This document shows, in pieces, positions 7,300 through 27,430 of a stretch of DNA of 27,430 nt. A model generated the notes under the pieces. It was given only the letters and a program-made list of their open reading frames with translations. It ran no database searches and was not told the DNA's origin. This DNA is from a virus. The stretch spans positions 1 through 27,430 of the IMG/VR virus record IMGVR_UViG_3300010354_000497, one strand, 5' to 3'. The translations under genes were made by a program, and so were the position numbers. Within the stretch, counting starts at the first letter, position 1. Each line of letters begins with the position of its first letter.

Positions 7300-7318
7300 C
7301 AGGGCCGGGGTGAAGGGA

Positions 7319-7723: not shown

Positions 7724-10700
7724 CACTGAATCACCCAGTTGGCATCATCAACGAAACCATCAGCCATCACCAGGATTCCGCTGTCGGTGGTAGGCATGTG
7801 AACTGCCTCGATGCTAAACGCGCCATCTTCTGAGGGGGTGATGCGCTCAATCTGGTACGTGTTGGTCTGAGTCTCGGTGTTCACCAGCGTGAAGATGACA
7901 CCGGCGGGCGTGGCCATAGACCCGCCGCCGCTGACGACCAGGCTGGTGACCGCTGGCTCTGTGCCATTGCTGCCATTCCACGCCAGCACCTGATAGGTGC
8001 CGTCGCTGAAGGGCTGCGTGCTCACCAGGGCGCCATTCCCCAGCACAGCCCCATTGCGGAGCTCGCTGACGCTGGAGATGTCCATCGCCACCCGGATGAA
8101 ATCTCCGGGCTGGATGGCGGCCACCAGGCCCTCATGGGTGGTGGAGAACCGGACCGCATGGTCAACGATCCGGCGCATCCGGACCATGAACCGTGCCGCA
8201 TCGATGGCGTGCCGCCGGCTGGTGACGTAGTCGGTCAGATCAAGGGACTCGATCGGGTCGGTATCGGCCCCGAAGGGGCTGGCCTCCCGCACCAGAACCT
8301 CGCGCTCCGTCGGGAACACCCCAGGGTTGTCGAGGTTGACCGAGAGGCGCTCCTCCCGGTACTTGACGCTCACCTGGATGGGTCGCCGATCCTCGGGTTC
8401 CAGGTACTCCAGGGAGAAAGTCCCCTCGAGGATGTTGCCGGCAGTGAAGATGCCCTGGATGGCCACCGCTGCGGGGCTGCTGACGGTGCCAGGCCACGCG
8501 GGACGCAGCCAGAAGCGCCCGCCGCTCTCGCCGAAGAAGAGGAGGTGGGCCGCGGCCACATCTGCTGCCCACTGCCGCAGGTTGACTCGACCGACGAACC
8601 CGCCATCGAAGAAGAGCAGCCGGTCACGACACCAGGTAGCACTGGCCTCAAAGCTGGTTCCATCAATCAGCGCAGAGGTGATCTGATCCCCCTTGCCGTA
8701 GGTGGGGTCAGTCAGGACGTCTCTGAGCACCTCCGGCAGCAGGTGGGTGCCATCGGCCAGAGCCAGGGTCACGTAGACGCTCAGCTGGCCGAACTGCTGA
8801 AACTCGGGCCCGAAGCGGACATTGAAGCCGAGGATCGCCAGCCGGTCGTACTGGGGCGCGGTCTCGTTGGGGATGATCTCGTTGACGTTGACGATCTCGT
8901 GCTCGGGGCCGCTATCGGCACTGGAGCGCACCTCCTCGTAGACGAAGGCTTCGGCAAGTTTCCCCCAGGCATCGAGGTAGGAGCTGTTGTCGCTGTAGCC
9001 GATGCCGATCTCGCCATTGTTGCCGCGTTGGACGCTGGCCAGGCGGAAGCGTTCGGGGCCCAGGGAGCTGCGCAGGCCAGCCGGGATGAAGGCTGCACCA
9101 GAAGGCCCGATGGCACCGCGGAAGCTGATCGTGACGCCGTTTGTCGTAAGGGTGCGCTGGGTGGAGAGGCCGCTGTCGATCAGCTCGAGGTCGCCAGTGG
9201 CGGTGCCGGAGCGGATCTCCCAGCCGGACAGCGGCTCGAGCTGGTATTCCCACCGCTTGACGGAGGGCATCACCAGGCGGAAGTCGTTGAAGACGTTCTG
9301 CTGAGTGATGCCGCGGACGCCAAAGCAGGGGGCGAGCTCGGTGAAGGCGTCCTCGGTGCCGGCTTCGCGGTAGCGGATCCGAAAGAAGCTATAGCGCTCC
9401 TCGGAGCTGTTCATCTGGCCGCTGTTGAAAATATCGACGGTCAGGTAGTCACCCGGAGCGATTGCGTTGTCCTCCTTGTCGTAGCAAGCCCGGTCGTCGA
9501 TCTGCTCGTAGGTGAGCGTGTCGCGGAAATTGCAGAGGCCTGAGATGCGGATGCCAAGGGCACTGCGGAGGCAGACCTCAACGATCCGGCACTCCCGCAA
9601 GGTGGAGAAATTGGCAATGGCGATGCGGTATAGATGCGGGAAGTTCGTAGCTGAGTAGAAAGCGGGATCATCGAGTGCGCTCTTTGTGATGTCATTCAGA
9701 CTGACTGTCTGTGATGAGCCGCTGCGAACAATCTTGAGGGACACCTCCACGGAGTTGCCCTGAGCAGAGCTGACGGGTTCAAAGTCGGCGTCTGAGTTGA
9801 AGGCAATGTCTGCTGGGTTGCGCGCGGAGCAGATGGCCAGGGCACTGCCAACCTTGAGCAGTTCACCCACCTGGAGGCTGTCGTCCCAGGTCTTCTGCCG
9901 ACCGGCAACGGCGGCGGCCACATCACCGGATCGCTCCTGATGGACATCGAGGCGATCGTTCACCGAGACCGTGAGTGTGGCCTCGAGGTTGGTGTAGTCG
10001 TAGGTGACGACAGGCAAGCCGGCGACGATGGTGGTGGTCTTCGAGATCGAGACGACGTGCTCGGTGTAGATGTCTTTGCTGCCACGCACGAAGAAAATGC
10101 TGTAGCTCACGACGTACGTGCCATCGTCCTGAGTGGCGATTGCGGGTTCAACTGACTCTGGGCTGAGAGTGGCAATCACGGAGAGCGAATTGCCGGAGGA
10201 GAGGACGTCTCCGAGGTCGAGCCAACCCTCAACAGTCGAATCAGGAATGCTGGGGAAGGGGTTATCAGCGACCTCGGCACGTGTATCCCAGCTAGAGAGG
10301 TTCTCTCCTGCCTCGAACACGGTGAGTGCGTCTGACGTGTTGGAGAGGTGGTAGGTCCAGGTGCTGCCGTCGTTGTCGATGAGGCCTGAGCGACCGCTGA
10401 ACTTGGCCTTGAACTTGTTGCGTTGGGCCAGGGAAACGAAGTCCGGTTCACAGACAACGCGACCTTCAGCCTTGCTTCTCTTCTTGGAGCCGCTGACCTT
10501 GACGGTGATCTGTGCGTTGACTCCTGGCCTGAGAGATGGATTGACCCGAAAGCCCAAACCGTTGCCAATCAGGGTGTAGACGCCGAACTGCGTCTGGGTG
10601 TTGGGCCGGCGAGCATGACAGAACCAGGCCGCTGGATTGCCGTTTTCATCCGCAACGGCATACACATCCGATTCAGTCAACCTCCCGGGATCATTGCTGG

Positions 10701-11343
10701 TGCCAAGAATGCGATCAGAGGCCGTGATCCTGCCACCGTTGGGCCTGTAGTAGACCGTGAAACGAGCGTTCTCGTTGTTGCCCAGCAGATAGGAGCCAAG
10801 CGTGTTGTTTCCGATTGCGATATTCGACGGATCTATCTGAAGTCCCGGGTCGCCTTCACCGATCAGAAACATGGCGCGAAGGAACTGCCCTTTGTCGAGG
10901 GCGACGATCTGGCTCCAGATCAGTGGCGCATTGACGCGAAGGCCCCCGTAGAACTGCCCATCGATCAGCTCGCGGCGGGCATAGATCAACGGAATGAAAT
11001 CACCGATAGAAGCAACATCCTGAAGGGAGTCAAAACCACCGCGGGCAACAAAGCGCCGCAGGTTCTGAATGGTCTGCCCCTGCGTCTGGGTCTGCTGCAG
11101 CCGTGGCTGTTGCTGCTGCTTCGGCTTAAAGAATGACGCCGCGATCGTCAGTCCCACGGACACCAGGGTGGCGACCAATGAGATGGTTGCAAGTGTGGCG
11201 GGTTCTGCAACCACTGCTGGGCGTGGTTGCGCCATTGCTCGGCGGCGGACCTCCGCCTGGTAGAAGCGATATTGATCCTCTGTCAGGCCAAGAAGGTTGG
11301 CGATGTAGCGGTCTGACGGAAGCAGAGGCAGGTCGTCAGGCAT
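7723..11343 (-). CDS. Tail tip / host-specificity protein, lambda J-like (1206 aa)
   Basis: This is a large tail tip protein, probably the central hub through which DNA leaves and to which fibres attach. The N-terminus resembles the lambda I-J junction: residues 50-72 are hydrophobic (LATISLVATLVSVGLTIAAS), then comes a Gln-rich stretch (76-89), then TIQNLRRFVARGGFDSLQDV and ASIGDFIPLIYARREL, a segment recurring at the start of J-like proteins. The middle has PEVLRDVLTDPTYGKGD and AATWCRDR-like stretches typical of the J hub region, and the C-terminal part is strand-rich. Order (L-like, NlpC/P60-like, then J-like) matches the lambda tail module. The ATG 11343 start overlaps the preceding gene by 8 bases. 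The receptor-binding role may be shared with or taken over by the downstream giant fibre. Confidence 0.85.
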   Translation of the reverse strand: MPDDLPLLPSDRYIANLLGLTEDQYRFYQAEVRRRAMAQPRPAVVAEPATLATISLVATLVSVGLTIAASFFKPKQQQQPRLQQTQTQGQTIQNLRRFVARGGFDSLQDVASIGDFIPLIYARRELIDGQFYGGLRVNAPLIWSQIVALDKGQFLRAMFLIGEGDPGLQIDPSNIAIGNNTLGSYLLGNNENARFTVYYRPNGGRITASDRILGTSNDPGRLTESDVYAVADENGNPAAWFCHARRPNTQTQFGVYTLIGNGLGFRVNPSLRPGVNAQITVKVSGSKKRSKAEGRVVCEPDFVSLAQRNKFKAKFSGRSGLIDNDGSTWTYHLSNTSDALTVFEAGENLSSWDTRAEVADNPFPSIPDSTVEGWLDLGDVLSSGNSLSVIATLSPESVEPAIATQDDGTYVVSYSIFFVRGSKDIYTEHVVSISKTTTIVAGLPVVTYDYTNLEATLTVSVNDRLDVHQERSGDVAAAVAGRQKTWDDSLQVGELLKVGSALAICSARNPADIAFNSDADFEPVSSAQGNSVEVSLKIVRSGSSQTVSLNDITKSALDDPAFYSATNFPHLYRIAIANFSTLRECRIVEVCLRSALGIRISGLCNFRDTLTYEQIDDRACYDKEDNAIAPGDYLTVDIFNSGQMNSSEERYSFFRIRYREAGTEDAFTELAPCFGVRGITQQNVFNDFRLVMPSVKRWEYQLEPLSGWEIRSGTATGDLELIDSGLSTQRTLTTNGVTISFRGAIGPSGAAFIPAGLRSSLGPERFRLASVQRGNNGEIGIGYSDNSSYLDAWGKLAEAFVYEEVRSSADSGPEHEIVNVNEIIPNETAPQYDRLAILGFNVRFGPEFQQFGQLSVYVTLALADGTHLLPEVLRDVLTDPTYGKGDQITSALIDGTSFEASATWCRDRLLFFDGGFVGRVNLRQWAADVAAAHLLFFGESGGRFWLRPAWPGTVSSPAAVAIQGIFTAGNILEGTFSLEYLEPEDRRPIQVSVKYREERLSVNLDNPGVFPTEREVLVREASPFGADTDPIESLDLTDYVTSRRHAIDAARFMVRMRRIVDHAVRFSTTHEGLVAAIQPGDFIRVAMDISSVSELRNGAVLGNGALVSTQPFSDGTYQVLAWNGSNGTEPAVTSLVVSGGGSMATPAGVIFTLVNTETQTNTYQIERITPSEDGAFSIEAVHMPTTDSGILVMADGFVDDANWVIQ

Positions 11344-12194: not shown

Positions 12195-15100
12195 TCAGAT
12201 CCCCACCTGTCGTCGTGCCTTCACTGAGTTCTTGAGCGCGCCCAGGGTGAGCGCTCGGCCACGTTCGGCGGCGCTGGCCATCCCACGCTCGAATTGCTCT
12301 GCAGTGACGTAGGCGGTCTGGTTGATCACCTCTGACTGATACCTGATGTCAATGGGCTTGCTGGAAGCTGTCATCGTGCTGGCCAGCACCCGCTCGGTCA
12401 TGCGTTCCCGGGTGATGCTGCTGGCGGCGGCCAGTGCCTGGCGAGCGGCAGCAAACGCTGATCCGGTCGCGGCTCCTGAGCGGCCATTGCTGCCGCCGGC
12501 ATAGGCCTGCCCCAGCGTTCCCTCCTGGCCGGTGGGATCGTCTACGCCCATGCCCCCCTGCCCCTGGGGCATACCTGCCAGTGCATTGCGAGAGGCCAGC
12601 AGGGCCCGGGTCTGGTCGTTCGGGATGACTGTGCCGGAGGTGGAGGGGATGAACAGCTCCATGCCCTGCTCCCCGACCAGATACGGCTGATTGCTGGTCG
12701 CGGGCCCACCGCCAGCAAGGCCTGGCACGCCGGTGAGCATCGGCATGGTGAAAACGCTGCCGCCGCCTCCTGGTCTGGGACCACCGAACAGGCCAGCGAT
12801 GGACCCGATCGACCCAAAAATGCCGGCCAGGCCCATCAGCGTGTTGTAAGTGCCGCCCTTGCTCATCTGCTGGGCACCGCCGACACCCATGGCGACGCCA
12901 CCGAGGACGGCCGCCACCCGCCCAAAACTCTGCATCAGGCTCTCGAATCCACCGGCCGCCTGGCCGGCTGTGGTGGCCACCACGTTGATGGCACCGCTGG
13001 CGGCATCCATCGACTGGCCGAACCCCTCAGCACTGCTGCTCAGCGCTACCTGCAGCGGCTCCAACGTGAAGGCGTCGCCGCTGAGCGGCTGGATCGCAGC
13101 GTCAGGCGTGCTGCCGGAGAACGGCAGGGCCTTTGCTGCCACTGGCCCCTGGGCCGCCTGCAGCATCGTGTCGGCCGCTCGCTGCATGGTGTCCGCTGCC
13201 CGCTGCTGCCCGTCGGCCGCCTGCTGCTGGGCCACCTGCCGCGCCTGCTCCTCCACGTCCACGCCGCTGAACTGCCGGAACAGGTTCTGGGTGATCGCCT
13301 GCTCGATCGGCGCCAAGGCGGCATCGATCAGTGCCCCGGTAAAGCGTTCCGCCATCGACTGGCTGATCCCCTCCGCCAGGCCGGCCAGATCGAAGCCCTG
13401 CCCCTGGAACAGCTGCCCCATGACCCCTCGCAGGCTGCTGCCGATCGTGCCGGCGATCGCTTCGGTCATCTGGGCAGCCATCCGGCCGCGTGGCGTCCCC
13501 AGTACATCGGCGGTGAGGGTTGCTCGGGTTCGCTCAAGCCTCAACGCGTCCTGCTGCGCCTGCTGCGTGGCGGTGAGGTTCTGGCGTGTGTTCGCCAGTT
13601 GCTGCTCGAGTTTCGGGGTGAAGACGTCTCGCTGCTCCTTGATTTGGTCGATCAGCTGGTTGCTGAGGTCGATCGAGCGATCGAGCGCGTCTGTGTTCGC
13701 TTCGAGCGCGTTCGTGTTGCTGGTGACCGGTGCCGCCGGCGCTGCCGCCATGCCTGCGCCTGGGATGTTGGCCGGATCCCCACCAAAGAAGCGCCTCAGG
13801 GCTTCTGCCCTGTGCGGAGCCATCAGCCCCACGCCGCTACGGGGGGAGGTGCCAAACGCATCCCGGCTGTCGATGTTTGCCTTGGGATTGCCTCCCAGCA
13901 CCGTCCGGTAGAGCGTCAGGAGGTCTGCCCCCTGGGTGGACATGCCGACCCCACTGAACCGGTCCTGGAAGTAGCGCACAACAGGCCCCTGCACCTGCTC
14001 CTCGAAGCTCTGGCGCTCGTTGGCGCCGTAGGCCCTGCGCTCGTTGGGGCCGAACTGGATCAGGCCCATGTAGTTGCCACCGGCGCCGCCCCATTTCGAG
14101 GGGCTGTAGGTGCCGCCTGTCTCGAAACCGATGATCGTGGCCAGATCCAGAGGGCTCACGCCGAGCTTGCCGGCTGCAGCGACCAGGGCCCTGGCCTGAC
14201 TGCTGAGGTTGCCGCCGCCAGTTGCTGCTGATCGAGCTGGCAGCACCGGAGCCGCTGGCCCACCGCCGCCAACCCACGTCCCGATCGGGATGGAGGTGGC
14301 GTCCCCTCCTCCGGCGCCAACCGGTGCCACAGAGGCCGCTGCAGTCGCTGACAGGGCATCCCGCTGCGACCGCAGCCCCAACAGGTCGCGCTCCGCCTGC
14401 AGCCGCGCCTGGATGCCCTTCTGCTCGAACAGTTGCCGCTCCATGTTCAGCTGGAAGATCCGCTGCTCCGATCGCTCGCGCATCTGCTGGAGCTCCAGCT
14501 GCTGCCGCTGCTGCTCCTGCTCGAGGTTGAGCTGCCGCTGCTTCAGGTCGTACACCCTGCGGGTGGCCTCTGCTTCGCTCACGAAGCCCTCGGCACCGGC
14601 GGCGAGCGCTTCGATCTGCGCACCGATCACCGCCCGCACCGAAGTGGGGTTTTCGGCCGCCTGCTGCTGCGCCTGCACCACCTTCAGTTCGGCCTCCGCC
14701 GCCTGGAGAGCGGCACTGGTCTGCGACTTCTGCACCTCCAGCCGGCTCTCGGCCAGCCGCGCCAGCTTCTCGGCAGATCGCTCCTCGTACTGCAGATCGC
14801 GGATCTGTTTCTCACGTTCGCCGCCGAGCCACACCAGGCCCCGCAGCTGCCGGTCCCGTTCGTTGTTGATGTCCTGCTCCTGCCGCTGCAGATCGGCCAT
14901 CAAGGCCTGTTGCTCGCGGGTGAGGCCGGCCATCTCGGCCTGGATGCCCAGCTGTTGCTCACGGATGCCCAGGCCCCGCTCCTCTAGTGCGTTCGTCTGC
15001 TGGATCACGCCGACCATCTCGTTCTGCAGCCCCACCGTTCGGTCGACCACCTCAAGCTGCTGGTTGCGGAGCTTCAGCTCGGCCGCGGCCTCCTGGTACT

Positions 15101-17297
15101 GGCGCAGGAAGCCCTGGTACTCGGTCGTGTTGCTGCGCACCGTCATCATCCGCTGCCGGATGTCGGCAATGGCCGCCTGAGACTTGTCGCGCTGGATCTG
15201 GATCTCCAGCCGCTGGATCTTCAGCTGCTCCTGCTGCAGGCGCTGCTGCCGTAGCTGGATTTGCAGCTGCATCTGGAGCATCTCCCGCTCAGTGCCGAGC
15301 AGGGCCCGCCGCTCGTTGATCCGCTCCTGCTCTTGCCGCAGCGCCAGATCGTTGCGGCGCTCCTCGGCTTCCAGGCGCGCCTCCGGCGAGGAGGCCAGCT
15401 GCACGGCGAAGTTGGCCCGGGAGGACTGCAGGCCGCGGCGGCCCTCCGCCAGCTGGTTCAGCTGCTCCTGCAGGGTCTTCTGGGCGCCCATGAGCCGCAG
15501 GGCCTGCTCGAGGCCCTGCACCTCGTTCTTGATGCGGTCCTGCACCAGCTGGGAGAGCTCCTTCGCCTCATTCAGCCGGCGGGTGCTACCGGTGCCCAGC
15601 CTGGCGTTTCGCGCCTCCAGCAGCTCAGTGGTGGAGCGCTGGAGGTTGAGGGAGCGCAGCTCGGGGATCTCGCCGCCACCGAGGGAGTTTGTGAACTCCG
15701 CCTCCACGTCTGCCTGGCGGCCCAGGATCTGTTTGTCCGATAGGCCGCCGAGCTTGCCCTGAATCCAGACGATCCGCTTGGCCAGCTCAACAAACGGGCG
15801 CGCGACAACCGCCGCGGCCGCGTCAGCCTTCTCGATCAGGTCGTCGAAGAACTTCAGGATGGCCTGGAAGCCTTGCTCCCGGGACTGCCCCTGCACCTGG
15901 GTGAGGACCCGCAGGAAGGTGCCGAATGGTCGCAGCAGGGCGGATATCCGGGCTGCCCACAGCTCAAAGACCTTGGCGATCACCGTCAAGATCTCGCCGA
16001 ACTGCCGGAAGGGGAGCGCCAGGCCGGCGAGGCCACCCACCAGACCGATCAGCTCCAGGGCCGGCCTCAGCACAGACGCCAGGATTGAACCCAGCGGCAC
16101 CAGCCAGCCGACGATCTCCCCGACCATCACCACTACGGGCTCCAGGCCTTCCGACAGGCTGCGCATCAGCCCCGCAAACGATCCCTGCAGGGCATTCAGG
16201 GGCTGCAGCACGGCCTGCATGGCCCGGGCCAGACCACGCTCCAGGGCCTGGCCACCCTCTGTCGCGATTGTCTGGAAGACGTCCTGGAAGTTGCTCTGGA
16301 CGTTGGAGAGGGAAGCGGCGAGGACCTTCTGACCGTCGTAGAGCTTCTCCAGCTTCTGCATCAGGTCGTCGTAATACTTGCCCTCCGACTGCAGCTGTTG
16401 GATCTTCTCCCTGGCCCCTGCTCCATAGAGCTTCATGGCCAGCTGGTCGTACATCTGGACGTCGCCTGTCACCAGGCTCTGCACCTCAGAGCGCAGCTGC
16501 TGGCCCGGCACGCCGAGGGTGTTGGCCGCGGCAGCGACGCGCGTCGAGAGCTTCCGGATGTTGCCCAGGTCCTGGCCCTTCTCGCCCAAGGACGCGGAGT
16601 TCTGCAGGATGAGGTTGAAGCCCTCGTATATCTCGGCTGAGGTGGCGCCAGAGATCTGCGCGACCTCCTTCTGGATCTCCTTGAACTCCCGGGTGATGAC
16701 CCCCCGGACAGCCCGCATCTGATTGGCGGTGCCCTCGATGCCTTTCCCGTCAGGTCCGAGGATCGCGAACGACTGGGAGGTGAAGATCCCGGCCTCTGCC
16801 ACCTGCTGGTTGAAGCGGCCGGCCTCCTGCGACAGCTGCTGCAGCGGCCCCAGCACGCTGTTCACCGCGGCTGACACGCCGAAGAAAATGGCCTGCAGGC
16901 CCTGAGCCGCCAGTCCGAGCTGACCCAGCACCGGCAGGGCCCGGCTGGCCATCCCCATGGCGCCGCCCAGGGCCCCACCCAGCTGTCCCAACCCGCCGCC
17001 CGCACCACCGGCCGCGCCGCCAATGCCTCCCAGTGCCTGGGTCAGCCCTGCCCATGCGCTGCTATCACCGCGAAGGCCTTCCCCAACCCGTCGGAGGATT
17101 TCGTTCAGGCCGTTGAGGCGGTTCTGAACGGCATCGATCTCTCGGCTCGCCTGACCGGTGTCCGCGTCAAACTTGACCTTGATCCCTTGGCGCTCCAGCT
17201 GGTCGGTGTAGCGCTTGAGGGTCTCGAGCTCGCGATCCAGCGCGCTGCGGTCGCCATAGAGGCGCAGAAACGCTGAGCCGAGGCTGATCCCCTCCAC
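12195..17297 (-). CDS. Tape measure protein with lytic transglycosylase domain (1700 aa)
   Basis: This protein sets tail length and is ejected ahead of the DNA. Residues 1-90 are helical. About 95-165 and 385-430 are Gly/Ala-rich hydrophobic segments that could insert in membranes. About 480-1000 is long Gln/Glu/Arg-rich coiled coil. About 1035-1170 resembles a lysozyme-like transglycosylase: ATIIGFETGGTYSPSKWGG with candidate catalytic Glu 1059, then GLIQFG. About 1430-1505 is again hydrophobic. Near 1540, YLVGEQGMELFIPS and SGTVIPN form the usual C-terminal tape measure signature. The start is GTG 17297 with AGGGA just upstream. At about 0.15 nm per residue, the general rule for siphoviruses, the tail would be near 250 nm. 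The position directly after G/GT supports the call. Confidence 0.95.
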   Translation of the reverse strand: MEGISLGSAFLRLYGDRSALDRELETLKRYTDQLERQGIKVKFDADTGQASREIDAVQNRLNGLNEILRRVGEGLRGDSSAWAGLTQALGGIGGAAGGAGGGLGQLGGALGGAMGMASRALPVLGQLGLAAQGLQAIFFGVSAAVNSVLGPLQQLSQEAGRFNQQVAEAGIFTSQSFAILGPDGKGIEGTANQMRAVRGVITREFKEIQKEVAQISGATSAEIYEGFNLILQNSASLGEKGQDLGNIRKLSTRVAAAANTLGVPGQQLRSEVQSLVTGDVQMYDQLAMKLYGAGAREKIQQLQSEGKYYDDLMQKLEKLYDGQKVLAASLSNVQSNFQDVFQTIATEGGQALERGLARAMQAVLQPLNALQGSFAGLMRSLSEGLEPVVVMVGEIVGWLVPLGSILASVLRPALELIGLVGGLAGLALPFRQFGEILTVIAKVFELWAARISALLRPFGTFLRVLTQVQGQSREQGFQAILKFFDDLIEKADAAAAVVARPFVELAKRIVWIQGKLGGLSDKQILGRQADVEAEFTNSLGGGEIPELRSLNLQRSTTELLEARNARLGTGSTRRLNEAKELSQLVQDRIKNEVQGLEQALRLMGAQKTLQEQLNQLAEGRRGLQSSRANFAVQLASSPEARLEAEERRNDLALRQEQERINERRALLGTEREMLQMQLQIQLRQQRLQQEQLKIQRLEIQIQRDKSQAAIADIRQRMMTVRSNTTEYQGFLRQYQEAAAELKLRNQQLEVVDRTVGLQNEMVGVIQQTNALEERGLGIREQQLGIQAEMAGLTREQQALMADLQRQEQDINNERDRQLRGLVWLGGEREKQIRDLQYEERSAEKLARLAESRLEVQKSQTSAALQAAEAELKVVQAQQQAAENPTSVRAVIGAQIEALAAGAEGFVSEAEATRRVYDLKQRQLNLEQEQQRQQLELQQMRERSEQRIFQLNMERQLFEQKGIQARLQAERDLLGLRSQRDALSATAAASVAPVGAGGGDATSIPIGTWVGGGGPAAPVLPARSAATGGGNLSSQARALVAAAGKLGVSPLDLATIIGFETGGTYSPSKWGGAGGNYMGLIQFGPNERRAYGANERQSFEEQVQGPVVRYFQDRFSGVGMSTQGADLLTLYRTVLGGNPKANIDSRDAFGTSPRSGVGLMAPHRAEALRRFFGGDPANIPGAGMAAAPAAPVTSNTNALEANTDALDRSIDLSNQLIDQIKEQRDVFTPKLEQQLANTRQNLTATQQAQQDALRLERTRATLTADVLGTPRGRMAAQMTEAIAGTIGSSLRGVMGQLFQGQGFDLAGLAEGISQSMAERFTGALIDAALAPIEQAITQNLFRQFSGVDVEEQARQVAQQQAADGQQRAADTMQRAADTMLQAAQGPVAAKALPFSGSTPDAAIQPLSGDAFTLEPLQVALSSSAEGFGQSMDAASGAINVVATTAGQAAGGFESLMQSFGRVAAVLGGVAMGVGGAQQMSKGGTYNTLMGLAGIFGSIGSIAGLFGGPRPGGGGSVFTMPMLTGVPGLAGGGPATSNQPYLVGEQGMELFIPSTSGTVIPNDQTRALLASRNALAGMPQGQGGMGVDDPTGQEGTLGQAYAGGSNGRSGAATGSAFAAARQALAAASSITRERMTERVLASTMTASSKPIDIRYQSEVINQTAYVTAEQFERGMASAAERGRALTLGALKNSVKARRQVGI

Positions 17298-20045: not shown

Positions 20046-20443
20046 TGCCCGGCCCTCCGCCGCATTGCCAGCGCAAAGCGCGCCTGGAAGTAGCGGACCA
20101 GCGACTCAGGGTTGTAGAGGACGGGTCTTGTCCACGGACGGGCCGGCATGCTTCGGGCATTGCCCTCCGCATCGGTCGCCTTGAACACGGCCCCGTCATG
20201 CACCACTGAGGCGTAGGGGGCTGTCCAGTCGAAGTAGGTCTCCAGCTGGCTGGAATCCAGCCCACGGGTGATCCGCAGGCTGCGCCGCAGGTTGCCGGTG
20301 TCCACGATGTCCCTTGGGGACGGGTCACGCGGCCATTCCCACTTCTCCTCGCTGATCTCATTGGTGAACCGACGGCCCATGTAGGCCGACAGGTCGTCCC
20401 AGGCCTCATTGAGGGCGTCGTCGATGCGCAGATCAAGGGGCAT
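20042..20443 (-). CDS. HK97 gp10-like neck / tail completion protein (133 aa)
   Basis: The segments VDTGNLRRSLRITRG, WTAPYASVVHDGAVF and ARPWTRPVLYNP follow the pattern of the HK97 gp10 family: a (V/I)DTGxLRxS turn, an YAxxVxxG strand and a PARPF/W motif near the end. Members join head and tail in siphoviruses. The start ATG 20443 has AGGAGA six bases upstream. The gene follows the 138-residue unknown with a nine-base gap and overlaps the next gene by four bases. The length is usual for the family. The remaining uncertainty is the exact place of the protein in the neck. Confidence 0.75.
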   Translation of the reverse strand: MPLDLRIDDALNEAWDDLSAYMGRRFTNEISEEKWEWPRDPSPRDIVDTGNLRRSLRITRGLDSSQLETYFDWTAPYASVVHDGAVFKATDAEGNARSMPARPWTRPVLYNPESLVRYFQARFALAMRRRAGQ

Positions 20444-20452
20444 GGCTCTCTC

Positions 20453-20869
20453 CTACGGAACGGGCGATGGTGGGGTTGGCAGCTGCTTGCCGCCCACCAC
20501 CCGGAAGGTGCCGGTGATCGACTGCCGGACCGTGGAGTAGACGGTGTCGTCCATGTCCAAATCGAACGTCAGCTCGAAACGGCCGACGTAGCCGTTGATC
20601 ACCGCCGCGGCCTTGCTGCCGTTCGTGATCCGCGGGTCGAGCACCGCGGGGAACAGCAGACGGCCAGTGCAGCGGTAGATGGTGGTGTCGGCCCCCTCCA
20701 CCTTCTGCCAGTTCGGGCCGGAGAGCTTCACCGCCGCCAGGTACTCAAGGGTCTCGACACTGGCGATGGGATTGCCAGTGGTCGAATCCGTCGTCACGGT
20801 GCCGCCGCTGACCGTGAAGGTCAGCTGGGCATTGCCGTGGGGGGCGTAGGCGGCGATGGGGAGGGGCAT
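20453..20869 (-). CDS. Neck-region hypothetical protein (138 aa)
   Basis: This protein starts MPLPIAAYAPHGNAQLTFTV and is strand-rich, with GADTTIYRCTGRLLFPAVLD and YVGRFELTFDLDMDD. It has no motif I can name. From memory, small strand-rich proteins of this size in the neck region of cyanobacterial siphoviruses look similar, but I cannot cite a family. Its place between the DUF4054-like connector and the gp10-like gene suggests head closure (stopper) function. The ATG at 20869 forms a TGATG overlap with the connector gene, so the two are probably translated together. Confidence 0.6.
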   Translation of the reverse strand: MPLPIAAYAPHGNAQLTFTVSGGTVTTDSTTGNPIASVETLEYLAAVKLSGPNWQKVEGADTTIYRCTGRLLFPAVLDPRITNGSKAAAVINGYVGRFELTFDLDMDDTVYSTVRQSITGTFRVVGGKQLPTPPSPVP

Positions 20870-21599: not shown

Positions 21600-22529
21600 T
21601 CAGGCCTTGTCGACGTAGGTGATGGATTTGGGGTAGTAGAGGGCCACGCCGGCCATCTTTGCCTCAGCCGGAACGCTCCAGGCCAGGTTCCGCGGTTGCG
21701 GTGGGTGGAACTTCAGCGGCATCGGCACATGGAACTGCAGCTTGCCGGGATCGCGCTTGTAGATCACCATCCGGGGTTTCGTGAGAACACCACCGGAGTT
21801 ATCCGGGTCGAGCTCATTGATGGGCTCCACCTGGGTGATGTACGGATTGGTGCGCAGGAAATACTCGAGCACCGTGGTGTCCGAGGTGGTGCTGCGGGGG
21901 GTGGTGCTGATCTTCCGGTAGACGCTGTAGGGAAGCAGCATCGTGTCGGGCCTCTCCACCATCCTCGAAGAGTTCACCTGGTAGGTGATGCCTTCGTTCA
22001 GGATGGCGAGCATGCCGTCCGGGGTGATACCGGAACCATCGAACCAGCTGTCGTTGGACGAGCCGGAGACAACGATTTTGTCGACCACCGGATGGTTGAA
22101 GAAACCGCGGAGGCCAGTGCCGGGGTAGCCGAACAGGGCGACCTTGTTGGCGCGCCGTTCGTAGCTCTCACGCACCGCATCGGCGCGGCGCTGCTCGAGG
22201 CTCACCTTGGCAAACTGGGCCTTGCGGATCTCCTCGGTGGTGTACCGGAAGGAACCGGCGAAGTTGCGGATCGTGTTGACGATCTCGCCACGCCGCACGT
22301 CGGAGGTGGGCAGATCATCGCCGAAGTCCGAGATCAGATCAAACTCGCCAACGGCGTCGTAGATCTCGTACTTGTAGGTTTCCGCACCCTCCGGCACCTC
22401 GTTGGAAACGGGGATGATCCGGGAGTAGGGAATCTCCGCGTAGATCTTCTCGTAGACCTTGGGAAGGATGTGCTCAAGCTCACGCTGGAGGAAAACCCCA
22501 GGCGTGGCGTTGTCCATGCGAACAGTCAT
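21600..22529 (-). CDS. Major capsid protein, DUF2184-type (309 aa)
   Basis: This is the shell subunit. The layout fits the DUF2184 family of capsid proteins with the HK97 fold: an N-terminal stretch FLQRELEHILPKVYEKIYAE, a Tyr/Asp-rich strand region around EGAETYKYEIYDAVGEFDLI, a long helix region IRKAQFAKVSLEQRRADAVR, then GYPGTGLRGFFNHPVV, and a C-terminal part FHVPMPLKFHPPQPRNLAWS. There is no long N-terminal delta domain, in line with the separate protease-scaffold upstream. Order protease, cement, capsid is typical. ATG 22529 has GAGG nine bases upstream. Confidence 0.85.
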   Translation of the reverse strand: MTVRMDNATPGVFLQRELEHILPKVYEKIYAEIPYSRIIPVSNEVPEGAETYKYEIYDAVGEFDLISDFGDDLPTSDVRRGEIVNTIRNFAGSFRYTTEEIRKAQFAKVSLEQRRADAVRESYERRANKVALFGYPGTGLRGFFNHPVVDKIVVSGSSNDSWFDGSGITPDGMLAILNEGITYQVNSSRMVERPDTMLLPYSVYRKISTTPRSTTSDTTVLEYFLRTNPYITQVEPINELDPDNSGGVLTKPRMVIYKRDPGKLQFHVPMPLKFHPPQPRNLAWSVPAEAKMAGVALYYPKSITYVDKA

Positions 22530-22540
22530 CGGTGGTTACC

Positions 22541-23122
22541 TCAACCTGCGGTGTCAGCGGTGAACGTGAGCTGGGCGGGAGTGTTGATCTCCAGCACCAG
22601 CAGCAGGCCAGCGGCGCCGGCCTTGCGAATCACCCAGCCGCCGGCAGCCAGCGCGAGGGTGTTGCCATTGCTGGCGGTCTTGCCCCACTTGCCGGCATTG
22701 GTGCCGCTCTTGTGGAAGCGCAGCGCATCGCCAGGTGCGACCGCTTCCATCACCTCCAGCAGGATCGTCCCCCGGGTGAGGATGTTGACGGCCTTGAGGT
22801 TGGGGATGCCCTCGCTGTAGGAGGGGGCAGCGCCAGGGGCAGGGATGCCCACTTTCTCGTGGACAGCGCTGCGGGCGGTGATGCCGAGGATCGCGCCGGC
22901 GCCGGTGGCCAGCTGGCAGCTGTTGGCCAGCAGACCACCGCTGTTGGCGGCCACGGGCACACCGAAGGCCAGCAGATTGCCGGTCTCGTTGGCGCCGGTG
23001 ATCACCCGGCTCATCGACAGGTCGGCGATCTGACCCACCAGGCCCCGATCGAGCTGGAGGGGGTAGTCAAACTGCGTACCCTCGCCGGAGGTGACAGCAG
23101 TGGGAGTGAACGTCTGGGCCAT
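22541..23122 (-). CDS. Capsid cement / decoration protein (193 aa)
   Basis: The gene sits between the protease-scaffold and the major capsid gene. The protein is rich in Gly, Ala and Thr with short strands: LVGQIADLSMSRVITGANET, then VAANSGGLLANSCQLATGAG and GTILLEVMEAVAPGDALRFH. This composition and position match structural cement proteins (gp24/DUF2190-like) that bind to the shell surface. The start ATG 23122 is chosen over GTG 23128 because AGGAG lies seven bases before it (AAAGGAGCGTGACCATG). The upstream stop TGA lies between Shine-Dalgarno and ATG, so the two genes are coupled. Confidence 0.75.
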   Translation of the reverse strand: MAQTFTPTAVTSGEGTQFDYPLQLDRGLVGQIADLSMSRVITGANETGNLLAFGVPVAANSGGLLANSCQLATGAGAILGITARSAVHEKVGIPAPGAAPSYSEGIPNLKAVNILTRGTILLEVMEAVAPGDALRFHKSGTNAGKWGKTASNGNTLALAAGGWVIRKAGAAGLLLVLEINTPAQLTFTADTAG

Positions 23123-23124
23123 GG

Positions 23125-23868
23125 TCACGCTCCTTTGGTGATGGTGAGCGGCTTGCGGGAGTTCTCCTGCGCGCCGCGGATCATGCGCTCACGGGCGGCG
23201 TCCTGCCCTCCGGAGCTCATGGGGATGCCGCCGAGGGCCGCGGCCAGCGGGTCGGCGCTGTCGATCCGGCCCATGCCCTGCTCGGCATAGGCATCGAAGG
23301 TGGCGGCGACGTAGTCGTCGGAACGACCCTCAAAGCGATCGGCGTCGACACCCACCTGCGTGAGGGCGTCGATCATCACCTCGCGGTCCGAGAGGCCATC
23401 GAACGTGGGCCGCTCGCCAGTGATGGCGGTGGCGCGATCGATCAGCTCCAGACGGGCCGACACCAGGGCGTCGAGATCGATGTCGGAGTCGACGCGGCTG
23501 TCAACCTCGAGCTCCAGGGAGTCGAGACGATCAACCAGGGCATCAAGACGGCCGAGGTCACGCTCATGGGCCGCGATCGCATCGTCACGCTCAGCGCAGG
23601 CCTTGTCGTACATGGCCTTGGGGACCATGCCGGCCATGGAGCCGTCCTTCTTGGCGATCTTGTAGGAGCCGAGGTTGGCGGCACCGCCGTCCATTTCCTC
23701 GTCCTCCATCATTTCGTCGTCCTCTTCTTCGCTGCCTTCGCGGACCTCGTCGTCCTCCATGGCGGGCATGGGGGGCTTCTTCTTGCCCTTGGCGTCAGCT
23801 CGGACCTGAGCCGACAGGGCAGTAGCGAGGGCCTCGGTGGCGTTGCTGAGCGCAGCCACAGCGGTCAT
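23125..23868 (-). CDS. Free scaffold protein from an internal start (247 aa)
   Basis: The same frame as the protease-scaffold, but beginning at ATG 23868 (codon 197 of the longer gene). GAGGAGG lies five bases before this ATG, better than the site at the gene's own start. The product begins MTAVAALSNATEALATALSA and holds the whole acidic and coiled-coil scaffold part without the protease. Lambda C/Nu3 is the known precedent for such nested in-frame scaffold genes. The scaffold would be needed in larger numbers than the protease. Confidence 0.65.
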   Translation of the reverse strand: MTAVAALSNATEALATALSAQVRADAKGKKKPPMPAMEDDEVREGSEEEDDEMMEDEEMDGGAANLGSYKIAKKDGSMAGMVPKAMYDKACAERDDAIAAHERDLGRLDALVDRLDSLELEVDSRVDSDIDLDALVSARLELIDRATAITGERPTFDGLSDREVMIDALTQVGVDADRFEGRSDDYVAATFDAYAEQGMGRIDSADPLAAALGGIPMSSGGQDAARERMIRGAQENSRKPLTITKGA

Positions 23869-24456
23869 GGTTTCCTCCTCTTGGGATTGGGGTTGTTCGC
23901 CGGCCGGATAGGGGTCAACGGCAGTCGCGGAATCCATGTGCAAGCGCACGTCAGGGCCTGCTCGGCCCTTGCGCACGATCGCGACATGATTTCCGGAGAT
24001 CTCCCGCTGCACGCCGTCGTACCGCTGGCCATCGGGCGTCGTGCCAGGGGTGGCATCGAACTTGACCCGATAGCCCACCGACACCTCGCGGGCATCACCC
24101 CGCTTGACGGCATCGATCGCTTCGCGGTCCGTCACGGTGACGAAGCCGACAGCAAACGGGGTGCGGTACTCCACCAGGGAGCCGGTGTGGCCCCGCTGGT
24201 ACTGCCGACACGTGTCAGGTGTCAGCAGCTCCGGCGGATGCTCCAAGGTGACCGGGAGGTTGGCCAGAGACAGCAGGGCGTCCTGTTTGGACACCTCCTC
24301 CTCGGGCCGATACTCGATGGCCTCGCTGCCGTCCTGCCGCCGATAGCGCTGCAGACCGGTGCGCGCGAAGGTGGCCTTGATGCGCAAGTAGCCCTCGGGA
24401 GTTTCCTCCCAGTCGGGCGAGATCTCGGCGCGGTCAAAGCGCAGCGCTTCGCTCAT
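23125..24456 (-). CDS. Prohead protease-scaffold fusion, DUF2213-like (443 aa)
   Basis: The N-terminal part (about 1-178, numbered from ATG 24456) is a DUF2213-type prohead protease. Candidate catalytic residues are His 73 (LPVTLEHP), Ser 126 (REVSVGYR) and His 157 (GNHVAIVRKGRAG); these fit the assemblin-like Ser-His-His arrangement, though this is by eye. The C-terminal part is scaffold: a Lys cluster (KGKKKPP), a very acidic run at about 234-256, a coiled coil at about 282-322, and a helical tail ending RKPLTITKGA. A strong internal ribosome-binding site precedes Met 197, so a free 247-residue scaffold should also be made. A TTG at 24462 is an alternative start, with GAGGA five bases upstream of it (11 before the ATG). 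Confidence 0.85.
   Translation of the reverse strand: MSEALRFDRAEISPDWEETPEGYLRIKATFARTGLQRYRRQDGSEAIEYRPEEEVSKQDALLSLANLPVTLEHPPELLTPDTCRQYQRGHTGSLVEYRTPFAVGFVTVTDREAIDAVKRGDAREVSVGYRVKFDATPGTTPDGQRYDGVQREISGNHVAIVRKGRAGPDVRLHMDSATAVDPYPAGEQPQSQEEETMTAVAALSNATEALATALSAQVRADAKGKKKPPMPAMEDDEVREGSEEEDDEMMEDEEMDGGAANLGSYKIAKKDGSMAGMVPKAMYDKACAERDDAIAAHERDLGRLDALVDRLDSLELEVDSRVDSDIDLDALVSARLELIDRATAITGERPTFDGLSDREVMIDALTQVGVDADRFEGRSDDYVAATFDAYAEQGMGRIDSADPLAAALGGIPMSSGGQDAARERMIRGAQENSRKPLTITKGA
23874..23880 (-). promoter_or_regulatory. Internal ribosome-binding site for the scaffold
   Basis: On the minus strand the bases read GAGGAGG, then AAACC, then ATG at 23868, in frame with the longer gene. 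In the fusion protein these bases encode the Glu run before Met 197, so the Glu codons themselves could create the site by chance. The perfect match and five-base spacing still make initiation likely. Confidence 0.65.
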
Positions 24457-24512
24457 GGCCAATCGAATCCTCGCTACAGGATGCAGGCCAATGTGTATGG
24501 TTCAGGTGAAAT

Positions 24513-24527: not shown

Positions 24528-24755
24528 GTGTACGCGATTGCACCAGACGACTACGTTCTCAGCGTTCTGGGCGGTCGGGTCCGGGTGCTGCGCACGGCCC
24601 GGGGCATGACCCAGGCGCAGCTCGCCGATCAGCTGGGTGTGCAGCACCCATGGGTGGCAAAGGTCGAGGGAGGACAGCTGGCACCCACGCCCGGCCGGCT
24701 GCGGGCCCTCTGCCAGGTGCTCAACTGTTGCCCGTCCCTGCTGCTGGCCCTCTGA
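24528..24755 (+). CDS. XRE/Cro-type small DNA-binding protein (75 aa)
   Basis: This is the only convincing plus-strand gene. LGGRVRVLRTARGMTQAQLA followed by DQLGVQHPWVAKVEGG is a clear XRE/Cro/CI helix-turn-helix (about residues 28-49), followed by a dimerisation-like helix RLRALCQVLNCCPSLLLAL. It is one HTH domain with almost no extra sequence, like Cro or antitoxin-type regulators. The start is GTG 24528; no other start fits because an in-frame TGA lies at 24507. No Shine-Dalgarno is evident. It is divergent from the protease gene and convergent with the 94-residue gene, nine bases apart. Targets are unknown; autoregulation is likely for the family. A regulator inside a late structural block is unusual. 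Confidence 0.85.
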   Translation: MYAIAPDDYVLSVLGGRVRVLRTARGMTQAQLADQLGVQHPWVAKVEGGQLAPTPGRLRALCQVLNCCPSLLLAL

Positions 24756-24768
24756 TCCCCTAGATCAG
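24752..24768. other. Stem-loop at the convergent gene ends
   Basis: CTGATC and GATCAG form a perfect 6-base stem with a 5-base centre (CCCTA). One arm holds the TGA stop of the plus-strand XRE gene, the other the TGA of the minus-strand 94-residue gene. There is no T run, so it is a weak terminator at best. It could be a bidirectional pause or simply the product of symmetrical stop codons. Confidence 0.4.
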
Positions 24769-25049
24769 CTGTCTTCTCCCTTCCGGTTGCCCTTGCCGCC
24801 CTGCTGGCCCTGCCAGGCATCGTTGGCGGCCTGGTTCAGCTGCAGCATGGTGTTCACCTCGCTGGCCACGTTGGCCCAGTCGATGCCGCCTTCCTCCTGA
24901 GCAGGCTCCTCGGCGGCATCGTTCCGGGTGGGGCCTTGGGTCTGCGCCCTGATCCAGTCCTGACGGTGCCGTTCGGCGGCCGCGTGATCGCCGGCTTCGA
25001 TGGCTTTCTGCATGGCGCACCAGGCGAGGATGTGGGGAGGTGTGTCCAT
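24765..25049 (-). CDS. Small hydrophilic hypothetical protein (94 aa)
   Basis: The protein starts MDTPPHILAWCAMQKAIEAG and contains a charged helical middle (DHAAAERHRQDWIRAQTQG) and an Asn/Gln/Gly-rich end. I do not recognise it. The ATG 25049 start is two bases after the kinase-like stop (TGACCATG); a GTG at 25067 would overlap the kinase gene. It ends nine bases before the convergent XRE gene. Its coupling to the kinase-like gene suggests a common job, such as adaptor or partner, but this is an inference. Confidence 0.65.
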   Translation of the reverse strand: MDTPPHILAWCAMQKAIEAGDHAAAERHRQDWIRAQTQGPTRNDAAEEPAQEEGGIDWANVASEVNTMLQLNQAANDAWQGQQGGKGNRKGEDS

Positions 25050-25051
25050 GG

Positions 25052-26356
25052 TCAGAGATCGCGCCACTGTCGATAGTGCTCGTCGACCCGCTGCCGGTAG
25101 GCGGCCAGGTCAGCCGGGCCGAAGTGGGCATCCCGGGCCTGTTCAGCCCTTTGGATCACGTCTGGGGTCAGCCTAGGCCTGAGGCCCGCTTCTCTCTCTG
25201 CATCGGCAAAGGACAGGCCCCGCTCCCTCACCAGACGGTTCGTTTCACGGATCCGCTCGCCGACGTTGCCTGGATCGTTGGCGTCGATCCATTCGTCGTC
25301 GAAAGCATCGATGACACGCCGGTAGGCATCGCCAGCTCTGCGTGTCGCGTCGCCCACCTCCACGGCACTGGGAGCGGTGTTGACCGAATACCCGAAGGTG
25401 ACCTGGTCCCGATCGATCCCTCGGTTCACCTGGATCATCCCTCCACCCAGCACGTAGAGGGTGCTGGATTCGCGGGTGGCAACCTCATGCGGCGCAGACG
25501 CCGGGCCGGCCTGCTGGTAGGCCTTTGCCGATTCCGCAAAGCCCCAGTCCACCAGCGACGGCGTGCCATCTGGACCGATCAGGATGTTTCCCGGGTGCAG
25601 ATCGCCGTGATCGAAGCCAGCATCGGCCAGAGTCCGCGCGATCCGCTTGATCCCCTCCGCGTAGCGGCCCAGGGCCCCGGGTTGCTCGAGGATCGCCCGC
25701 GCCTCCGGGGTGGTCGATGTTGAGCGGTGATCATCTGCCAGCTTCACGCCAGGGATCATCCGGTAGGCGAAGGCCAACCGGCCATCAGGGAGTTCCTGCA
25801 CCGGGCCAAGCGGCTCCGCTGCGAGGCCCAGTTCATGCGCGCGCTGCATGTTGGCCCGCTCGCGCTCGACCATGTTCCGCCGCTGTTGAACCTTGGAGAC
25901 GGATGGATCGGACTCTCTCGGGTCGCCATTGCTGAGCCGGTCGACCTTCACGACGATCGGGCCCTCAGCGGTGTCTGCCATGTAGGCGTCCCCAAAGGCG
26001 CCGCTGCCCAGGGTCTTCAGAGGGGCCTTGCCGTTGATCAGCACCGCCCCGTCAGGGCCCGTGGTGACGCTGGGATGTGCGCCGGCGGGGGGCGCCGCGG
26101 CAGGCTTGGGGGCAGCCGCGGCCTTCTCACGCTCCGCCCGGCGACGCACCGTCTCCTGAATCAGGGGGTGCAGCGGCTTTTGTGACCTTTTGCCTTTCCG
26201 GCACGTCTTGTCGGGGGAGATCCAGCCGTCACCGCACTTCACTCCATTGCCGCCGGTGAGATCGAGGCTGAGCTGCCCCGGGGCCTGGCGGATCCGGGCA
26301 TCCAGCCGGGCGACCCGCTCGACCAGGGCATCGATTGTGGTCAGGCGAGTCGGCAT
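25052..26356 (-). CDS. Protein-kinase-like protein (434 aa)
   Basis: The protein has the main motifs of a protein-kinase-like fold, numbered from ATG 26356: glycine loop LGSGAFGDAY (about 116-125), VVKVDR with candidate ATP-binding Lys 137, a helix with Glu 164/166 (NMVERERANM), catalytic loop HGDLHPGNILI with Asp 252 and Asn 257, and DWG at 270-272 in place of DFG. HGDLHPGN is shared with aminoglycoside-phosphotransferase and ABC1-type kinases, so the target could be protein or a small molecule. Before it lie a Cys-pair segment KCGDGWISPDKTCRKG and a Pro/Ala-rich linker; after it about 150 helical residues of unknown role. The TTG at 26386 is an alternative start overlapping the upstream gene. 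Substrate unknown. Confidence 0.85.
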   Translation of the reverse strand: MPTRLTTIDALVERVARLDARIRQAPGQLSLDLTGGNGVKCGDGWISPDKTCRKGKRSQKPLHPLIQETVRRRAEREKAAAAPKPAAAPPAGAHPSVTTGPDGAVLINGKAPLKTLGSGAFGDAYMADTAEGPIVVKVDRLSNGDPRESDPSVSKVQQRRNMVERERANMQRAHELGLAAEPLGPVQELPDGRLAFAYRMIPGVKLADDHRSTSTTPEARAILEQPGALGRYAEGIKRIARTLADAGFDHGDLHPGNILIGPDGTPSLVDWGFAESAKAYQQAGPASAPHEVATRESSTLYVLGGGMIQVNRGIDRDQVTFGYSVNTAPSAVEVGDATRRAGDAYRRVIDAFDDEWIDANDPGNVGERIRETNRLVRERGLSFADAEREAGLRPRLTPDVIQRAEQARDAHFGPADLAAYRQRVDEHYRQWRDL

Positions 26357-26369
26357 GCCCCAAGAGCCT

Positions 26370-26648
26370 TCATCTACCGGAGCCAAGGGCCGCTGGGAGC
26401 ATCGCCTCGGGCGCCATCAAGGTCCGCAGCTCTGCCACAGCCAGATCGGCCTGTCTGGCCACCATCACCAGCGGGGTGTCGTCCTGCATGTGCTCCAGCA
26501 GTGTCGACAGCCAAATCTGCTCGTCGACACCGGCAAGCGCCGCGGTGTAGGCCTCGACTTTCTGCGCCAGACGCTGCCGCGCCTTGCCAGTCGCCGCCCG
26601 ATAGCGCTTCAGCCAGTCGAGCAGCTCGTCCTTGTGTCGTTGCTCCAT
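26370..26648 (-). CDS. Small helical hypothetical protein (92 aa)
   Basis: The protein starts MEQRHKDELLDWLKRYRAAT and is predicted mostly helical, with ALAGVDEQIWLSTLLEHMQD in the middle and a short Ala/Pro-rich end. I do not recognise it. The ATG 26648 lies four bases after the metallopeptidase stop (TGAGGCCATG), and the TGA at 26370 is 13 bases before the kinase-like ATG, so the three form one translation unit. A role as partner of either neighbour is an inference from spacing only. Confidence 0.65.
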   Translation of the reverse strand: MEQRHKDELLDWLKRYRAATGKARQRLAQKVEAYTAALAGVDEQIWLSTLLEHMQDDTPLVMVARQADLAVAELRTLMAPEAMLPAALGSGR

Positions 26649-26652
26649 GGCC

Positions 26653-27430
26653 TCAAGTCACCGGTGTTGGTGGCAGCGTCGGATTTGCTGTTGCGCGCCG
26701 CAGGGTGTCGTCGACCCAAGCGTAGACAGCCGGGGATCGGCGTCGAAGCTGCTCCGGGGCCGCCACGAAGGCGACGAAACTCTCGGCGAAGAGCTCCAGG
26801 CCGTTGGTGGTCGAGTAGTCCGAGACGAAGTGTTTGTTCGGACCCACCAGTGAGCCACCACCAATCGAGTCGGGCTCCATCATCTTGAGCTCCGCCTTCA
26901 ATTCATCAGACAGCTTCGGGATTGTGTTCCGAGCATCCCCGGAAGCGAACTGAACCATGTGGCCGACCTCATGGATAAAGGTCACCAGCCGGTATTCGGT
27001 ATGACCTACCCCGCCTCCCACGGTGTTCGTGCTGGTAGCCCCCACATCGCCATAGGTCTCAACCTGACGCTGCACGCGGGCCGTCATCTTCTCAAGATCC
27101 GGGCCCTCTGGGCTCCACGGGCGATCGCTGTCCGGATCATCACGCAGCCTCAGAGTCCCATTACGACTCGCCAGACCTGCGGCAGCAGGAACACCCATCA
27201 GCAGAGCGCCGAGCTTGCTGTAGTTCACCTGCAGCATTTTCTTGCTGTGCTTTATGTTCTTGTCGTGGAATAGCAGTCGGTCCTTGTCATCCTGTACCCG
27301 ATCAGGCGTATCCCATCCATTCTTTTTGTCTTCCTTCATGCCCTCCTCGATCAGCTTCTTGTTCTTGCGCGATTGCGAGATCTGCCCCTCGCAGTATTCA
27401 ATGCTCGCTGCAAGGCGTGAGACCATCGGA
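26653..27430 (-). CDS. Zinc metallopeptidase-like protein, cut by the window edge
   Basis: The C-terminal half shows a zincin core: TFIHEVGHMVQFASGD with HExxH (His 152, Glu 153, His 156 if counted from ATG 27426), and downstream SDYSTTNGLELFAESF, where Glu 211 or Glu 215 may be the third zinc ligand. This pattern (HExxH, then YS-x-x-N-x-x-E-x-FAE) is similar to anthrax-lethal-factor-like and MuF-associated metallopeptidases. The N-terminal half is Lys-rich and helical. The frame runs to the window edge without a stop, so ATG 27426 may be an internal Met and the real protein longer, perhaps with a head morphogenesis domain in front. The target is unknown. Confidence 0.75.
   Translation of the reverse strand, partial: PMVSRLAASIEYCEGQISQSRKNKKLIEEGMKEDKKNGWDTPDRVQDDKDRLLFHDKNIKHSKKMLQVNYSKLGALLMGVPAAAGLASRNGTLRLRDDPDSDRPWSPEGPDLEKMTARVQRQVETYGDVGATSTNTVGGGVGHTEYRLVTFIHEVGHMVQFASGDARNTIPKLSDELKAELKMMEPDSIGGGSLVGPNKHFVSDYSTTNGLELFAESFVAFVAAPEQLRRRSPAVYAWVDDTLRRATANPTLPPTPVT

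Follow-up and report, generated by a model that had tools for sequence, protein, structure and literature searches.

The window analyzed here is a 27,430-bp virus record from IMG/VR (G000; IMGVR_UViG_3300010354_000497), and the gene of interest is a kinase-like open reading frame (ORF), confirmed on the minus strand at 25052..26356. In order of transcription, the locus contains a metallopeptidase gene, a 92-aa ORF, the kinase gene, a 100-aa ORF, a helix-turn-helix (HTH) regulator on the opposite strand, and the genes for a DUF2213 head protease, a cement protein and the major capsid protein (MCP). This confirms the position, between a metallopeptidase gene and the head protease, given to the kinase in an earlier reading of the sequence alone (the original prediction). 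The window is a fragment: it lacks the leftmost stretch of the late operon, which would lie on the minus strand beyond position 27,430. The mechanical ORF (26386..25052, minus strand) begins with TTG and encodes 444 aa; an in-frame ATG at 26356 gives 434 aa. The ATG is the better start because homologues start at that column and the stop codon of the upstream gene lies 14 nt before it. Residues are numbered from this ATG.

The predicted protein contains all of the kinase catalytic residues: a G-x-G-x-F-G loop (117-122), Lys137, the alpha-C Glu166, His250, Asp252, Asn257 and Asp270-Trp-Gly. Both loop glycines, Lys137, Glu166, His250, Asp252, Asn257 and Asp270 were invariant in alignments of 9, then 21 kinases, even as identity among the 21 fell to 16%. 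The ratio of nonsynonymous to synonymous substitution rates (dN/dS) of related kinase pairs was 0.09-0.27, which points to purifying selection on the gene. Close homologues lacking Lys137 and Asp252 had been named in the original prediction as an observation that would speak against it, as had a structure with no kinase fold. Neither was seen: the two residues are among the invariant ones, and an AlphaFold2 (AF2) model of residues 92-434, built on a deeper alignment, reached a predicted local distance difference test score (pLDDT) of 87.1 and a predicted TM-score of 0.84, superseding a mediocre full-length model (pLDDT 75). In a Foldseek search of the Protein Data Bank (PDB), all of the matches listed were kinases, the best being PknB (E=5.6e-8), with modest TM-scores (0.33-0.49). 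A viral structure library returned three kinases of phage S-CBWM1 among its matches. C-terminal to the catalytic core, the model has a helical region, and in the sequence His250 and Asp252 are separated by a single glycine, with no insert.

Profile searches gave matches above chance, but the family assignment depended on the query. With the window kinase alone, Pfam placed APH first (PF01636; 27.7 bits against a gathering threshold of 23.2, E=2.8e-6), ABC1 and Pkinase were weaker (PF00069, 20.2 bits, below its cut-off of 31.7), and the PHROG 'kinase' family matched at 4.4e-7. A profile of the 21 kinase domains was instead nearest to StkP and PknA (~1e-12). APH was judged the less likely family, since the match, though above the gathering threshold, is restricted to the catalytic loop (residues 243-285, TTG numbering) and the family profile lies nearer to StkP/PknA. 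The original prediction had placed the protein in no family that it could name. StkP, PknA and PknB, the best profile and fold matches, share the catalytic residues but are only ~20% identical, and the window kinase has HGD and DWG rather than the HRD and DFG of canonical (Hanks-type) Ser/Thr kinases. At first a single close relative was found, L002 of the 33,957-bp contig G001, which aligns with 54% identity. When bacterial and archaeal genomes were scanned twice with kinase alignments, no relative was found, and hence no prophage copy with a named host. By motifs, conservation and predicted fold, the gene encodes a protein kinase. We take it as a probably active kinase of a divergent family because of the invariant active site, the dN/dS values, the predicted fold and the profile matches.

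The kinase domain is preceded by an N-terminal module that consists of a helix (residues 3-24, predicted in the full-length AF2 model) and a cysteine mini-domain, CGDGWISPDKTC, whose two cysteines are the only cysteines in the protein. We refer to this module as the tag. In G001 it occurs in two forms, a 4-Cys form (RLDALxARLDA...C-x2-G-x2-C-G-x2-C-I-x3-K-x-C) and a 2-Cys form (...QMxLDL...K-C-G-x-G-W-I-x3-K-x-C). In the 2-Cys form, Cys1 is missing and the Cys3 position is occupied by W, H, F or Y. A scan of viral contigs with the 4-Cys pattern returned at least 120 stretches. Cys1 and Cys3 were both present in 156 tags and both absent in 34, with 3 exceptions that look misaligned, spurious or truncated; the sample was chosen by patterns for the 2-Cys and 4-Cys forms, and related tags are not independent. 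Outside the tag, 76 tagged proteins have 99 cysteines in 40,237 aa (0.25%, vs 0.57% for the remaining proteins of the window); in 45 of the 76, no cysteine lies outside the tag. As Cys1 and Cys3 are lost together and cysteine is rare elsewhere in these proteins, the tag cysteines probably form two disulfides, Cys1-Cys3 and Cys2-Cys4; a phylogenetic effect of two clades is the alternative. Zinc binding by all four cysteines was rejected as the sole role, given that a conserved 2-Cys form persists after the paired loss.

No Pfam family describing the mini-domain itself was seen, and none among the 25 most frequent NCBIfam families listed; PHROGs includes it only inside larger unnamed or minor-head families (phrog_33618, phrog_16619). 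A tblastn search of 50,697 phage records with the 2-Cys tag alone gave no match, such short tags being near the detection limit. The 4-Cys tag found the phage isolates PaV-LD, S-CBWM1 and CL131 in INPHARED, along with a weak match to a secreted SH3-type protein of Pseudoalteromonas phage C5a. Small secreted proteins (L046, L054, L048, L085, L111 and L132) also have the mini-domain, placed after a signal peptide; some of them have SH3-like tails, and others have sequence that by eye looks endonuclease I-like or thermonuclease-like.

The tag is common to unrelated enzymes encoded in the head modules of related phages. A scan with kinase query A2 recovered 20 viral stretches carrying the kinase family, and the kinase ORF scores for the tag in 20/20. 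Within the limits of each stretch, genes for portal, MuF, a tagged ParB-like protein, tagged metallopeptidases of two types (LPD1 and M90-like), DUF2213 protease, cement protein and MCP adjoin the kinase, in the order portal-MuF-(tagged genes)-protease-cement-MCP. On G001, the order is TerL, portal (PF06381), MuF (PF04233), tagged DnaJ, tagged ParB-like, tagged metallopeptidase with LPD1, further tagged genes, tagged M90-like metallopeptidase, a 90-aa gene, the kinase and a 99-aa gene. The window matches the end of this array (peptidase, small gene, kinase, small gene) and adds the head genes beyond G001's end. The G001 array genes mostly overlap as start-stop pairs, which indicates a single operon, and several successive genes start with the same kind of tag and continue into unrelated enzymes. 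Two of the G001 cargo domains had been labeled 'GNAT-like' and 'JAB-like' by guess, no profile matching them, and these names are not used here.

When 71 non-redundant tagged proteins were aligned, only the mini-domain was conserved. Pfam assigned them kinase-type domains (at most 11), ADP-ribosyltransferase (4), DnaJ (3), LPD1 (3), zeta toxin (2), InPase (1), portal domains (six matches over three families) and MuF (1). Kinases are thus the commonest recognized enzyme in this set and the family occurs in at least 20 viral stretches, contrary to the original prediction, which held protein kinases to be rare in phage late operons. In two relatives, portal, tag and ADP-ribosyltransferase form one polypeptide (L020, residues 58-407 / 452-494 / 517-729; L071, residues 58-420 / 505-549 / 697-849), and ORF079 of PaV-LD is a tag with an ADP-ribosyltransferase. 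The tag is thus physically part of a virion protein in some phages, and in other phages it is carried by free enzymes. Of the stretches chosen by tag and holding a tagged ORF of at least 200 aa, 45/86 have a recognizable head gene, and 99/102 tags in those 45 have the same orientation as the head gene closest to them. The original prediction had missed the cysteine module and the array of tagged neighbors, as well as the truncation of the metallopeptidase gene.

Several arrays have further features. L158 has two divergent kinases (9851-11011 and 14617-15639, plus strand), and gp048 of CL131 (L012 12706-18141, plus strand) has 1811 aa and carries the cysteine tag four times, so that it looks like several tagged units in a row. 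DnaJ occurs as tagged cargo in L140 (3399-4412), L155, L156 and L159; a co-chaperone would be an unusual delivered effector.

Tags and enzymes also recombine. Between L122 and L038, identity is 83% in the kinase part and 31% in the N-terminal part, one being 2-Cys and the other 4-Cys, and the tag on the acetyltransferase side of L122 is 56% identical to the L038 kinase tag. In the kinase tree, the 4-Cys L152 is nested in a 2-Cys clade (support 0.976 and 1.0); one kinase has traded a 2-Cys for a 4-Cys tag.

The reading that we favor, with some reservation, is that the kinase is an active, interchangeable cargo effector of a tailed phage. The tag, a helix with a probably disulfide-bonded mini-domain common to enzymes of the same late operon, would draw the enzymes one by one to the portal region of the head as it assembles; the tagged enzymes would leave the head with the DNA at infection, and the delivered kinase would phosphorylate host proteins early in infection. 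Sequence and comparison establish the kinase fold, the conserved active site, the shared tag, tag swapping, the array in the head module and the fusion in cis between portal and ADP-ribosyltransferase; packaging, injection, the disulfide state and host-protein substrates are what we infer from there. The original prediction had suggested a protein made with the virion, possibly packaged and injected, and this gains support from the gene context and from the tag being fused to portal and MuF, although it falls short of proof. There is precedent for such loading: the N-terminal 30 residues of P1 DarB are enough to carry a reporter into the capsid (PMC9024508), and effectors that are fused to MuF or portal proteins are taken to be packaged (PMC5512222, PMC9503650). 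In what it reports of virion proteins, the main text of the CL131 paper (PMC6293099) names no tagged ORF.

Three observations weigh against a cargo role. No head gene was recognized in 41/86 of the tag-chosen stretches, which are short and were searched with few queries. The mini-domain is also found in secreted bacterial nucleases and SH3-type proteins and is, alone, no capsid signal; these occurrences mean that it is not exclusive to phage heads, and they fit a disulfide-bonded fold. Finally, S-CBWM1 (NC_048106) has three tagged kinases, annotated as RIO-, ChoK- and APH-like and each with an N-terminal 4-Cys tag, of which two lie ~47 kb from the third and adjoin auxiliary metabolic genes, and so not every tagged kinase is encoded in a head module. 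For the RIO-like and ChoK-like kinases, the annotation places the start codon within the in-frame tag or after it, leaving the deposited proteins without the tag.

The head-module position and the association of the tag with portal and MuF could also mean that the tag docks the kinase on the prohead, where, in the producing cell, it would act on capsid, scaffold or portal proteins. We consider this unlikely. The closest isolate, Synechococcus phage S-CBS4 (MCP 53.6% to the window, portal 39.9% to G001), has homologous portal, protease, cement and MCP genes, yet neither tag nor kinase nor array was found in its genome, and this head type can thus assemble without the kinase. Other tagged domains (e.g., ADP-ribosyltransferase, zeta toxin, DnaJ and metallopeptidases) better fit host-directed effectors. 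The suggestion in the original prediction that the kinase modifies capsid proteins finds no specific support, and a role as an ordinary assembly protein was rejected on its absence from S-CBS4.

Zeta-toxin and ADP-ribosyltransferase cargo, modular C-termini and the analogy with MuF toxins (PMC5576092) would suit polymorphic antibacterial toxins of a temperate phage, in which the kinase blocks growth and a small neighbor gene gives immunity. Conserved small ORFs do adjoin the kinase and the peptidase. However, the 100-aa gene and the kinase do not always occur together, as the gene follows a metallopeptidase in L145 and none was recognized beside the L148-L152 kinases, and we regard this explanation as improbable.

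Phage kinases that act inside the infected cell are known. The window kinase might similarly be a late cytoplasmic enzyme, with a T7 gp0.7-like shutoff or reprogramming function and the tag merely a linker or a metal/redox module, and S-TIM5 and S-CRM01 do carry untagged kinases (that of S-TIM5 among auxiliary metabolic genes); we doubt this, since one would then not expect the tag on portal, on MuF or on so many unrelated enzymes whose genes lie between those for portal and protease.

Coordinates are collected in Table 1. The window metallopeptidase is 43% identical to residues 220-465 of the tagged homologue on the L002 contig and has weak M90/ATLF matches under the curated Pfam cut-offs; its N-terminal half, tag-bearing in relatives, falls past the contig end. 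The 100-aa gene type recurs ahead of the protease in many loci. An HTH regulator on the strand opposite the head genes, directly upstream of the head protease, is present in the window phage, S-CBS4 and CL131, and PaV-LD has an opposite-strand ORF without a match at the same place. Apart from the weak C5a match, the tagged isolates in INPHARED are all cyanophages, and the closest isolate, S-CBS4, infects Synechococcus; the host of the window phage is thus probably a cyanobacterium.

Table 1. Features of the window and of related sequences, with positions in the sequence named.
Sequence	Feature	Position	Strand	Basis or remark
Window	Kinase gene, 434 aa from ATG	25052..26356	-	ORF list, homologue starts; in-frame TTG at 26386
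Window	N-terminal tag module, residues 1-57: helix 3-24, QLSLDL segment, cysteine mini-domain	26186..26356	-	common to unrelated enzymes in relatives
Window	2-Cys mini-domain CGDGWISPDKTC, residues 41-52	26201..26236	-	
Window	Predicted kinase domain and C-terminal helical region, residues 92-434	25055..26083	-	AF2 model, Foldseek to PDB kinases
Window	Lys137, ATP-binding, invariant	25946..25948	-	alignments of relatives
Window	Catalytic loop HGDLHPGN, residues 250-257, catalytic Asp252	25586..25609	-	alignments of relatives
Window	Asp270 of DWG, metal binding, invariant	25547..25549	-	alignments of relatives
Window	Metallopeptidase, zincin-like (HEVGH), C-terminal part	26653..27426	-	frame open to 27429; rest past contig end
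Window	Small conserved gene, 92 aa, between peptidase and kinase	26370..26648	-	44% identity over 55 aa to same-place gene in L002
Window	Small conserved gene, 100 aa, after kinase	24765..25067	-	45% identity over 88 columns to L002
Window	HTH regulator, just upstream of protease gene	24528..24755	+	PF13560 E=8.3e-15
Window	Head maturation protease/scaffold (DUF2213)	23125..24462	-	PF09979 8.6e-45; phrog_530 1.6e-80
Window	Cement protein	22541..23128	-	PF22758 5.1e-21
Window	Major capsid protein	21600..22529	-	PF09950 2e-51
L020	Portal-tag-ADP-ribosyltransferase fusion	6915-9104	-	
L071	Portal-tag-ADP-ribosyltransferase fusion	261-2813	+	
L160 (S-CBS4)	HTH counterpart	13837-14127	-	
L012 (CL131)	HTH counterpart	4127-4438	-	
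L013 (S-CBWM1)	In-frame tag missed by annotation	20411-20465	+	
L014 (S-CBWM1)	In-frame tag missed by annotation	7843-7888	+	

The arrays resemble polyvalent proteins (Iyer et al. 2017, PMC5512222) in their kinase, zincin metallopeptidase, ParB-like, ADP-ribosyltransferase, InPase and LPD1 domains near head genes. Polyvalent proteins are thought to be injected early and are reported to be scarce in cyanobacteria (PMC5512222). They carry at least two effector domains per polypeptide, whereas the tagged proteins usually have one enzyme per polypeptide and a common tag instead of a fusion; the window kinase has one enzymatic domain, and effector domains are fused in some relatives (L122/L148). 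The window kinase also lacks the His-Asp insert of the polyvalent-protein kinases and retains the C-terminal region. MuF polymorphic toxins (Jamet et al. 2017, PMC5576092) likewise combine a head-protein-linked module with variable C-terminal effectors, but the common part here is a cysteine mini-domain, mostly on separate proteins and in many copies per genome. The Pfam search of the window kinase gave no PF04233 (MuF) match, MuF is a separate gene in relatives, and the word 'kinase' does not occur in the MuF toxin paper. Like the P1 Dar and T4 internal proteins with capsid-targeting sequences (PMC9024508), the tagged proteins are several and share an N-terminal module, which here may serve as a loading signal; the Dar proteins have no consensus signal by BLAST (PMC9024508), whereas the tagged proteins have a clear shared N-terminal sequence. 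The S-CBWM1 tagged kinases belong to the same family by profile but are only 24-26% identical to the window kinase domain. Phage-delivered effectors are thus known in kind, and their build as separate tagged polypeptides is new.

These data make the finding more interesting than first stated, as the gene is one cargo of a tagged polymorphic array and not an isolated rare kinase. More tentatively, and with more doubt than for the kinase itself, the disulfide mini-domain could be a general cargo tag of a large (cyano)phage group, by which swappable host-directed enzymes (kinases, ADP-ribosyltransferases, proteases, zeta toxins and DnaJ) are held at the portal vertex, either as separate proteins or in cis. 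Once reduced in the cytoplasm of the host, such a tag may lose its hold, and the polyvalent-protein repertoire would be carried as separate tagged parts. If the tag does load cargo, it would provide a sequence handle for recognizing injected effectors in largely unannotated phages and would make testable the question of how proteins are chosen to enter the head. It would also explain how many early effectors are delivered without large polyvalent proteins and would predict that kinases are a frequent first-wave weapon against the host.
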